A DNA stretch of 64,000 nt from assembly GCF_000153825.1 (NCBI RefSeq), contig NZ_DS022299.1, forward strand, positions 585,216 through 649,215. The letters run 5' to 3'. Both the position numbers and the translations under genes were made by a program. Below are positions 18,511 through 20,104 of the stretch, piece by piece; position 1 is the stretch's first letter; each line of letters starts with the position of its first letter. The notes beneath the pieces are model-generated. The model made no database searches. It saw nothing but the letters and a program-made list of their open reading frames with translations, and was not told the origin of the DNA. Origin of the DNA: Synechococcus sp. RS9916 (GTDB lineage: Bacteria > Cyanobacteriota > Cyanobacteriia > PCC-6307 > Cyanobiaceae).

Positions 18511-19218
18511 ATGCGCACAATTCTGATCAGCGGAGCCTCGCGTGGCATCGGACGTGCGATTGCTGAACGCGCCTTGCGTGATGGCCACCGCCTGAGCCTG
18601 GGGGTGCGTAATCCAGATGGGCTCATCGGTACGGCTCTTGATCCAGCTGTGGCTGGCTCCGACAGGATCCAGCTGGTGCCTTACGACGCTGAGGATCCGG
18701 CGGCGGCAACCGCTTGGGTGCAACAAGCCTTGGAGCGTTTTGGTGGCATCGATTCCCTGATTCACAGCGCTGGGTTGTTGCTTCCGACGCCGCTTCTGTT
18801 TACGGACGCTCAATCACACGAGCCGGAACAGCTGATGCGGGTCAATCTGATGGGCCCCTGGTGGCTGACCCGTGCTGCCTGGTCATCGCTTATCGCCCAT
18901 GGCGATGCCCGCATTCAGGTGTTGGTGTCGATGAGTGGTAAACGCAGCAAGGGGCGTTGGGCGGGTTACGCCAGCAGCAAGTTCGCGCTGATGGGCCTTT
19001 GTCAGACCATCCGCAATGAGGGTTGGGACCATGGCATTCGAATCACGGCCATCTGTCCTGGTTGGGTCAACACCGACATGGTCAGTGGCATCAACGCGGT
19101 GCCTCCAGAGCAGATGACGCAACCCGAGGATCTGGCGGCGTGGTCATCGCGCCTGCTGGAGTTGCCACGGTCTGCGGTGCCCTTTGAGTTTGCGTTGAGT
19201 TGCCTGCCTGAGGTGTAA
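18511..19218 (+). CDS. Short-chain dehydrogenase/reductase
   Basis: ATG 18511 gives 235 residues beginning with the Rossmann motif ISGASRGIGRAIAE (5-18). The active-site Ser region is VLVSMSGKRSKGRWAG and the catalytic YASSK lies near residue 155. ICPGWVNTDM follows in the usual place. The frame is open far upstream, overlapping the divergent methyltransferase, but the family start is clear. Substrate unknown; it acts in the cytosol with NAD(P)H. Confidence 0.88.
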   Translation: MRTILISGASRGIGRAIAERALRDGHRLSLGVRNPDGLIGTALDPAVAGSDRIQLVPYDAEDPAAATAWVQQALERFGGIDSLIHSAGLLLPTPLLFTDAQSHEPEQLMRVNLMGPWWLTRAAWSSLIAHGDARIQVLVSMSGKRSKGRWAGYASSKFALMGLCQTIRNEGWDHGIRITAICPGWVNTDMVSGINAVPPEQMTQPEDLAAWSSRLLELPRSAVPFEFALSCLPEV

Positions 19219-19751
19219 GACCGAGCGAGCGACCCAGCCAGAGTCGCTTGGTCCGAGCACGATCGCGCCGAGCGAAGTTCCTTGTGATTCAAGCAAGTCT
19301 GAACGGAGCCTCATTGCAGTGCTGCTGCTGATTGCCCTCTGGTGTCCTGCACTGGTGGTGGCGTTGCAACGCACCGATGTGTCTTGATCTTTCCGGTTCA
19401 TCCTGAATCGCTCAATACCGAGCATCAGATTCCGGCGTTTTCAATCGATGGGTGTACCAACTTGTGGTGTTGCTGCTGTCAATTTAAATGTGGTTGCAAT
19501 TGTCTTTGCGATCAAAGACGCAGTGCGACCCACGTAATCTGCTGCCCGCCGCTGTTTGGAGGTTCATCGCTAGGGGTCTCGCTGATGGTGCCAATTGTGA
19601 TCGACACCTGATCATCATTTGCTGTGCAGATAATCGAGAGCGATTCGTTGCGAGCGTCCCTCTCGAATTCCCAGGTGAAGTGATCAAGATCACAGCCATC
19701 GTTGACCCAGGTCAATGATTCGGGTGGTGATCGCGGCGATGGTGTGTGTGT
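19219..19751. other. Intergenic, no supported gene
   Basis: No convincing gene is seen. Short frames on both strands lack family features and plausible starts. A hydrophobic stretch (LIAVLLLIALWCPALVVAL, around 19311-19370) is encoded in one plus frame, but no credible start codon precedes it. The rest may contain the promoter of the peptide gene at 19791. Confidence 0.5.
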
Positions 19752-19767
19752 CGGAGGGAGACCTCCG
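19752..19767 (+). promoter_or_regulatory. Small hairpin with GNRA-type loop before peptide gene
   Basis: CGGAGG and CCTCCG form a perfect 6-bp stem around GAGA, 23 bases before the ATG at 19791. The left arm contains an AGGAGG-like ribosome-binding sequence, so the stem could mask or present it. Regulatory meaning is inference. Confidence 0.35.
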
Positions 19768-19790
19768 CTTTAACCCTCACACACAAAACC

Positions 19791-20063
19791 ATGAATCAAT
19801 CCATTGCTTGTATCGCCGCGATGCAAGATCAAGAGCTCGACTTTGACACGCTTCAGACCATCAGTGGTGGTGGTCGAGAAGCCAAAACCAAGGTAGGAAA
19901 ATGGTTCGAAAAAACCTTTGGCAATGGTGATGGCACGCACACGCTCGGTGACTACGTCGATGATGTTGCAAAACTCGTGATCTTGATTGCCAAGAAAAAA
20001 AGCTCAGGCAACGTTCATCAACCACCTGGGGAAGACGATCCTGCTCCCGGTACCTGGTACTGA
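19791..20063 (+). CDS. Double-glycine-leader peptide, bacteriocin-like
   Basis: The 90-residue product has a short leader ending ELDFDTLQTISGG (residues 15-27), which fits the LxxxELxxIxGG consensus processed by C39-peptidase ABC exporters. The predicted mature part (28-90) is highly charged: GREAKTKVGKWFEKTFG, then a central hydrophobic KLVILIAKKK and a Pro/Asp tail ending PGTWY. It contains no Cys, so it would be an unmodified class II type peptide. No exporter or immunity gene is adjacent. A good terminator follows 19 bases after the stop, so it is a single-gene transcript. The start at 19791 was preferred over in-frame codons at 19746 because the leader begins there. Confidence 0.72.
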   Translation: MNQSIACIAAMQDQELDFDTLQTISGGGREAKTKVGKWFEKTFGNGDGTHTLGDYVDDVAKLVILIAKKKSSGNVHQPPGEDDPAPGTWY

Positions 20064-20081
20064 TCCATTCTCTAGAAAAAT

Positions 20082-20104
20082 GCCCCGCGAAGAGCGGGGC
20101 TTTG
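20082..20104 (+). terminator. Rho-independent terminator of the peptide gene
   Basis: GCCCCGC and GCGGGGC form a perfect 7-bp stem with a GAAGA loop, followed by TTTGCTT. Confidence 0.8.

Follow-up and report, generated by a model that had tools for sequence, protein, structure and literature searches.

The window analysed here, a stretch of 64,000 nucleotides (G000:C1:585216-649215) in the one-contig, 2.66 Mb genome of a marine picocyanobacterium, contains a small gene whose product begins with a double-glycine (GG) leader, and the question raised by this locus is how such a peptide might leave the cell and what might turn its gene on. To our knowledge, little is known about what turns on GG peptides in marine picocyanobacteria. 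In cyanobacteria at large, 290 GG precursors in 58 genomes are reported as predictions in the consulted text of Wang et al. (2011; PMC3140520). An earlier note, made from the letters of the window, had described the gene as a stand-alone unit for an orphan secreted peptide, likened to a bacteriocin or a signal. The larger finding of the present analysis is a promoter-hairpin module that is common to many genes for probably secreted products, of which this gene is one.

The gene unit

The unit of hairpin, gene and terminator-like stem is real and lies where the earlier note had placed it: sequence and folding locate the leader hairpin, the GG leader, the 63-residue Cys-free product and the terminator stem, all four at the positions described. 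Together with the elements upstream, the unit reads as follows.

19679..19694, + strand: site 1, a CRP-type operator AGTGATCAAGATCACA with 1 mismatch to TGTGA-N6-TCACA (pattern match; at most 1 mismatch per module in 17 aligned modules)
19702..19715, + strand: site 2, a weaker palindrome of the same kind TTGACCCAGGTCAA, 22 bp downstream of site 1 from centre to centre (TGA-N6-TCA in 17/17 aligned modules)
19738..19743, + strand: -10-like hexamer GATGGT, which follows the start of site 1 by 59 bp (fixed spacing in a gapless 91-column alignment)
19750..19750, + strand: predicted transcription start, placed 7 bases past the -10-like hexamer
19752..19767, + strand: leader hairpin CGGAGG-GAGA-CCTCCG, located where the mRNA is predicted to begin (sequence and folding)
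19768..19790, + strand: C/A-rich unstructured leader without a Shine-Dalgarno sequence beside the ATG (sequence and folding; similar in style ahead of other precursors)
19791..19871, + strand: double-glycine leader, residues 1-27 (translation and leader comparison)
19872..20060, + strand: predicted mature peptide of 63 residues, with core K.GKW.EKTFGNGDG.H...DY.D and a Pro-rich tail (translation and alignment)
20061..20063, + strand: stop codon TGA of the precursor gene (sequence)
20082..20100, + strand: terminator-like stem-loop GCCCCGC-GAAGA-GCGGGGC (sequence and folding)

The precursor open reading frame (ORF; 19791-20063) has 90 codons and an ATG start by translation; the program-made ORF list begins the same frame at an upstream GTG (105 aa), a start that precedes the predicted transcript. 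The 44-nt leader has a minimum free energy (MFE) of -11.2 kcal/mol. Shuffles reach -6.06 +/- 2.1, which places the leader at z -2.45, and 4 of 200 shuffles fold equally well. The terminator-like stem consists of 7 G-C pairs (-16.9 kcal/mol; z -3.15 against shuffles) and has a weak T-run (TTTGCTTG). On one side the window ORF list gives an ORF ending at 19218, which we take to be a short-chain dehydrogenase, and on the other two ORFs, presumably purS and purQ.

The precursor and its relatives

The precursor leader ends ...QELDFDTLQTISGG, and cleavage after GG would yield 63 residues. The GG-leader consensus has hydrophobic residues at positions -4, -7 and -12; the window precursor has I, L and L at these positions and, with its GG end, bears a double-glycine leader of the C39-exported type. 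It further resembles the leaders of 15 other GG precursors of its own genome, among which M1, L16 and L21 are invariant and E15 nearly so (GG is invariant there by choice of the set). The mature part is indeed charged, as had been proposed, but the charges are balanced: it has 0 Cys, a pI of 6.93 and a net charge of about -0.5 at pH 7.5.

Searches of Pfam, NCBIfam and PHROGs returned no significant family for the peptide. NHLP and Nif11 leader models are absent from the two NCBIfam matches listed at E<=10; the CCRG-2 RiPP model reached 10.9 bits, below its NCBIfam cut-off of 24, and the ComC-type signal precursor model 12.7 bits against a Pfam cut-off of 20.4, on the leader only. Prochlorosins combine a GG leader of Nif11 type with a lanthipeptide core that requires Cys, and the mature part, lacking Cys, does not qualify as such a core. 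An EF-hand or dockerin reading of the GNGDG stretch was considered and rejected: the EF-hand or dockerin-like loop pattern has D at position 1, the candidate calcium loop (F-G-N-G-D-G-x-H-x-x-x-D) has F there, and no EF-hand or dockerin match to Pfam was obtained in the 6 members scanned. The AlphaFold model, with a mean pLDDT of 48.6, is of poor quality and indicates no more than helices at residues 3-13, 18-24, 29-42 and 52-69.

Relatives of the peptide are few and scattered. By tblastn, 6 of 201 family genomes were matched, the own genome included; three weak matches (L007-L009) were dropped as relatives because the frame read contained no GG precursor, which left G029 (4 matches), G169 and the own genome. 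Searching with an alignment gave matches in 5 of 31 genus genomes and 9 of 400 family genomes, several of them by the leader only, and 5 peptide loci among genome contigs, including those of Prochlorococcus sp. MIT 0701 and Synechococcus sp. UW105. The peptide as a single-sequence query found no relative in genome contigs, and viral contigs contained none. The earlier note had named homologues without GG as one of two findings that would speak against it; GG is retained in the five aligned homologues, as are the frame and the core. The closer relatives have in common the core K.GKW.EKTFG[ND]GDG.H...DY.DE and a Pro-rich tail, and in the alignment of 6 rows W38, E40, G44, G46-G48, H50, D54, Y55 and D57 are constant, with the exception that 46-48 reads G-D-G. 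Between homologue loci, blastp of flanking ORFs of at least 40 codons revealed only the peptide gene, alternative frames of it and ORFs that overlap the module as common elements; likewise, no linked immunity gene is common among neighbours of at least 40 codons, a size and sharing limit that a smaller or unshared one would escape.

This record bears on whether the gene is a neutral or decaying orphan with no present function. Such decay would account for a family profile that matches only 5 of 31 genus genomes, some by leader only, and for two damaged copies: that in G217 (G217:C1:2036805-2037183; L015, L017) has the module and leader and a frameshift in the GDG region, and that in G209 lacks its leader. 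However, one homologue pair (L005/L006) has a dN of 0.09 and a dS of 0.45 over the mature part (dN/dS about 0.2), from which the product looks to be under purifying selection, and the window copy has an intact promoter, leader, core and terminator. Overall, we consider decay very improbable.

C39 exporters elsewhere in the genome

The genome search for C39-peptidase ABC exporters that the earlier note had recommended detected 2 C39 proteins above the Pfam cut-off and a third match below it, so the other finding named there as counting against the proposal, a genome with no such exporter, was not obtained. The absence of an exporter near the gene was therefore correctly noted, since both C39 loci lie far from it. 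At the first (G000:C1:1834388-1840430) three adjacent genes encode a peptidase-free ABC protein, an HlyD protein and a C39-ABC protein; the C39-ABC protein is NHLM_micro_ABC1 (1025.5 bits against an NCBIfam cut-off of 853.3) and the HlyD protein NHLM_micro_HlyD (241.2 against 156.2), and the peptidase-free ABC protein has NHLM_micro_ABC2 as its best match (616.7 bits, under the cut-off of 709.4). The second locus (1463862-1469663) contains the same three kinds of gene with the same best models, all under NCBIfam cut-offs. Since the genome encodes two C39 proteins, one NHLP-type locus exceeds cut-offs and the homologues keep GG, secretion of the predicted peptide via a C39 exporter encoded elsewhere in the genome is well supported, and the secreted product proposed from the window is probably right.

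The stretch beyond the NHLP exporter (1840446-1856832; L103:8447-9880, L118) contains a protein that matches TIGR03896 (bacteriocin-type transport-associated) weakly, at 26.2 bits against 161, another that partly matches the cNMP domain of L096 (a CRP-family protein described below), a cyclase-domain protein, and L096 itself.

A promoter-hairpin module

When homologue loci were compared, the same upstream layout was spotted ahead of different GG peptides. It consists of a 91-bp module that ends with the hairpin: a CRP-type site, a second weaker site, a -10-like hexamer and the hairpin follow each other, and 17 copies align over 91 columns with zero gaps. The -10-like hexamer is GATnnT in 16 of the 17 copies and CATCGT in one, most continue TCGG, and its distance of 59 bp from the start of site 1 is the same in 17/17. 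No consensus sigma-70 promoter was found upstream of the gene, and the TGTGA-N6-TCACA-type site that marks a CRP regulon is present there. The window contains the promoter pattern a single time, and none of 40 order-2 Markov copies of the window contains it. A transcript beginning at 19750, as predicted, would have site 2 centred at -41.5 and site 1 at -63.5; -41.5 is the classical position in CRP-activated promoters.

To survey genomes we used R1, a sequence-only model of the 91 columns with 17 training modules, one of them from the own genome. R1 has 34 matches in the own genome at E<=0.01 and 42 at E<=10, E-values being rough. The best 17 own matches lie ahead of 11 GG precursors, 3 RTX-repeat proteins (Pfam) and 3 others, proportions to be read with the fact that the training modules were mostly picked by a GG peptide downstream. 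The GG-precursor modules are at 604895, 1047053, 1358798, 809747, 1367816, 1053973, 1377681, 1375285, 1048868, 775525 and 59686, and the RTX-protein modules at 1050523, 889365 and 66760. The window gene is thus one of at least 11 GG precursors of its genome behind the same module, and the description of it as a stand-alone or orphan unit does not hold. Weaker, partly shorter matches lie ahead of three tandem proteins, some proteins with signal-peptide-like starts (by eye) and a ThiF-family gene, and some are without a clear secreted product downstream.

Three of the loci concerned have features of their own. At 2385472-2392677 (L109) the three tandem MLEFNLDGKLNN proteins, of 729-751 aa, each lie behind a CRP-type site, and a calpain-like cysteine peptidase domain was detected in the one that was scanned. 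At 1024829-1027494 (L110) 3 tandem GG precursors, identical as printed (MKNLNHELTEKELQSIAGG), have CRP-type sites and are followed by the ThiF-family gene, a possible modified-peptide cluster. At 774281-775226 (L108) the module stands ahead of a 58-codon ORF, after which comes an RTX-like ORF (by eye); an RTX gene may have been broken here.

A leader-model search gave 41 matches at E<=10, and the 30 having loci were classified as 11 with the full module, 3 with site 1 and a similar site 2 only, 9 with a second promoter class (described below) and 7 with neither, after two reassignments by hand (775451 to the full module, by R1 match L051, and 888063 to the second class, by a variant motif) of an initial 10, 3, 8 and 9; on inspection, 3 of the 7 are without an ATG-started ORF.

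The module is widespread in the genus: 29 of 31 genomes, the own included, have an R1 match at E<=0.01 and 25 of 31 at E<=1e-6. G202 and G207 have no match; in each of G181, G213 and G214 there is a single weak one, and in G034 there are two. In the family, at stricter filters, 29 of 251 genomes and 6 of 59 genera have matches at E<=1e-6. Behind modules in other genomes, inspection by eye again showed GG precursors together with longer proteins, some of which resemble RTX proteins or have a start like that of a signal peptide. In drafts, modules were also seen at extreme contig ends (G169:C23:21-110, C29:21-110 and C11:74-162; G156:C3, C13 and C23:167-255), which suggests that these lie in long near-identical repeats that break assemblies, and G123:C1:2280375-2283937 is a tandem array of five module copies spaced regularly at 870 bp.

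The recurrence of one layout suggests that the genes having the module are turned on together, and we take them to form a regulon in which a CRP-family protein controls secreted peptides and proteins. The recurrence also bears on what the peptide might do. A class II-like bacteriocin, an exported peptide that permeabilises related cells, with immunity coming from the exporter or an unlinked gene, would suit the GG leader, the exporter of NHLP bacteriocin type and the two helices predicted in the mature part (in a low-confidence model), and antagonism would fit the patchy occurrence and the frameshifted copy in G217. The bacteriocin-like character suggested in the earlier note is, however, matched by the leader and exporter type only: Pfam, NCBIfam and PHROGs offer no family, homologue loci have no neighbour ORF of at least 40 codons in common, the net charge is near neutral, and the promoter is the same as that of RTX proteins. 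We therefore regard a bacteriocin as unlikely, and favour a cell-to-cell or surface role.

The candidate regulator

Five CRP-family proteins of the own genome exceed the Pfam cut-off. L094 is presumably NtcA; L095 is identified by NCBIfam as PtrA (315.2 bits, cut-off 300); L097 and L098, neither of which exceeds any NCBIfam cut-off, lie on either side of one gene, which we take to be ferritin-like. The fifth, L096 (G000:C1:1856152-1856832), has cNMP_binding, HTH_Crp_2 and Crp domains over Pfam cut-offs, and matches E. coli CAP structures at about E 1e-12; against the NCBIfam CRP model it falls below the cut-off (66.4 against 266 bits). Compared with the recognition-helix letters of E. coli CRP, it has the helix ARETASR at the DNA-contact positions (contacts being HTH positions 13, 14 and 18). 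L096 lies ~8 kb from the cyclase-domain protein and ~16 kb from the NHLP exporter.

An L096 ortholog (E<1e-90) is present in 20 of 31 genus genomes, and in G213 as fragments only. Across 24 near-complete genomes the number of modules has a median of 10 with L096 (n=17) compared to 2 without it (n=7; one-sided p 0.006, which, like the p value for L097/L098 below, overstates independence since the genomes are related). The presence of L096 across genomes nonetheless fits the modules only partly: G204 and G075 (99% complete) have no L096, yet 9 modules each, and G181 has L096 and a single weak module match. As sole regulator, L096 thus does not fit cleanly. It seems to us probably the regulator all the same, and the likeliest of the five.

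Another CRP-family protein, L097/L098 or PtrA, might instead read the module, in which case the regulon would answer to a nutrient and not to cAMP. L097/L098-type genes appear to be present in G204 and G075, the presence of such genes is associated with module number (19 genomes with, 5 without; p 0.0017, from a table entered by hand from scores and positions in which genomes having one of the pair counted as having the pair), L095 is identified as PtrA, and other family members are suggested to read CRP-like sites in crp-less genomes in the consulted text of Xu and Su (2009; PMC2633013). Against this, the recognition helices of the L097/L098/PtrA type read TRVT or TRST and not ARETASR, and the orthology of the pair was judged from scores and positions alone. 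We hold this alternative to be rather unlikely and retain L096 as the candidate.

The leader hairpin

The hairpin recurs among copies of the module. In the 30 nt around the predicted start, a strong stem (score >=8) is found in 0.67 of 69 distinct leaders compared to 0.085 of letter shuffles, which preserve letters and not neighbours, the model used to retrieve the loci having itself covered the hairpin columns; in the flanks strong stems are rarer (0.09 in the stretch before and 0.01 in the stretch after), and about a third of the 69 leaders have none. Mean MFE over the 69 leaders is -8.46 versus -3.51 kcal/mol. By inspection, stem sequences vary between modules by paired changes (CGGAGG/CCTCCG, TGGAGG/CCTCCA, CAGAGG/CCTCTG). 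An Rfam search of the region returned nothing relevant, and a Yfr- or actuaton-type RNA, considered as an identity for the leader, is unsupported by Rfam.

A second class of GG precursors in the own genome, with leader IIELTDDQLELVEGG, has another promoter with TCACCAG repeats, again with a hairpin and a C/A-rich leader. Where seen (L105:3624-3695, L106:4091-11656; own genome 1049123-1368155), the TCACCAG direct repeats are 11 bp apart and the hairpin is GGGG-CAACA-CCCC; a PhoB/OmpR-type regulator is conceivable for this promoter class. Because this class also has a hairpin and a C/A-rich leader, selection may act on the 5' end of the mRNA itself, and protection from decay would be the simplest form of it.

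The same recurrence of hairpin and C/A-rich leader before GG precursors under a different promoter is consistent with a regulatory switch, acting through translation or an RNA-binding protein, in which GGAGG would be a Shine-Dalgarno-like decoy paired with CCTCC; GGAGG/CCTCC is indeed recurrent among stems. However, the end of GGAGG is about 33 nt from the ATG, many other stems lack GGAGG, and Rfam offers no match. A switch thus appears to us possible though doubtful, and 5'-end protection is the reading that we carry forward.

Proposed model

In the model that we propose, a CRP-family activator, most likely L096 and presumably with cAMP, would bind the tandem sites at the predicted -63.5 and -41.5 and turn on the window gene along with numerous further GG precursors, RTX proteins and additional proteins that are probably secreted. 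The 5' hairpin would most likely protect the mRNA end and the gene's own terminator close the transcript, so as to form a self-contained cassette. A C39 peptidase-ABC exporter encoded at another locus, probably the one of NHLP type at 1834388-1840430, would remove the leader after GG and free the 63-residue peptide, which outside the cell would more likely have a cell-to-cell or surface role (signal, matrix or biofilm-like) than act as a killer. As a whole, this model of a C39-exported Cys-free peptide from a co-activated, hairpin-protected cassette is one that we lean towards on the sequence evidence above. A broader proposal, which we put forward tentatively and as slightly less than evenly balanced, is that marine picocyanobacteria have a CRP-type 'secretion regulon', in which dozens of scattered, self-contained cassettes, each with a double CRP-type operator, a 5'-end hairpin, a gene for a secreted peptide or RTX protein, and a terminator, have spread from strain to strain and between genera and place fast-changing extracellular peptides under one switch.

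A common and recognisable promoter-leader module would tell which peptides are co-expressed and name candidate regulators, and one deletion strain could then reveal the whole peptide set at once. If L096 is the regulator, cyclic-nucleotide signalling would be tied to what these abundant cells release; if the secretion regulon is true, the module would serve as a tag for unannotated secreted peptides in genomes and metagenomes.

Comparison with known systems

In the open-access literature searched, we found neither the module nor a CRP regulon controlling GG peptides reported. Xu and Su (2009), in the text consulted, give 17 of 29 genomes as without crp, four of those with no sign of sites, and predict TGTGA-N6-TCACA-type sites in marine strains such as CC9605, CC9311 and MIT9313, as seen here; that text has no mention of a double-site module, a leader hairpin or a link to GG peptides (PMC2633013). 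In the Syn_GI122 genomic-island module of marine Synechococcus, adenylate cyclases lie close to CRP and other proteins that bind cyclic nucleotides, and surface and secreted proteins accompany them; the text consulted (Dore et al. 2020; PMC7522525) mentions neither target promoters nor GG peptides for it, which sets it apart from the module described here.

Among peptides, the C39-processed precursors of Wang et al. (2011) likewise have a GG leader, a C39 peptidase-ABC exporter and diverse cores. As far as their consulted text goes, they were sought around exporter clusters, whereas the window gene is far from an exporter; its leader matches no NHLP or Nif11 model, and its dispersed companions have a promoter module in common, unlike that set (PMC3140520). 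Prochlorosins and synechococsins are likewise peptide precursors of marine picocyanobacteria, and the words 'promoter' and 'upstream' are absent from the main text of the 2023 RiPP survey of marine Synechococcus that covers them (PMC10783134); the window peptide, with its Cys-free core, is unlike prochlorosins. A further likeness, by description and not by sequence, is to EbfG1-4 and PteB of Synechococcus elongatus. According to the text consulted, ebfG1-4 form one transcript with a locus number adjoining that of the exporter gene, unlike the window gene; as proposed here for the window peptide, the EbfG proteins are small, secreted, GG-motif proteins (6-7 kDa after cleavage) with a C39 exporter, and their role is in biofilm and not in killing (PMC4997328).
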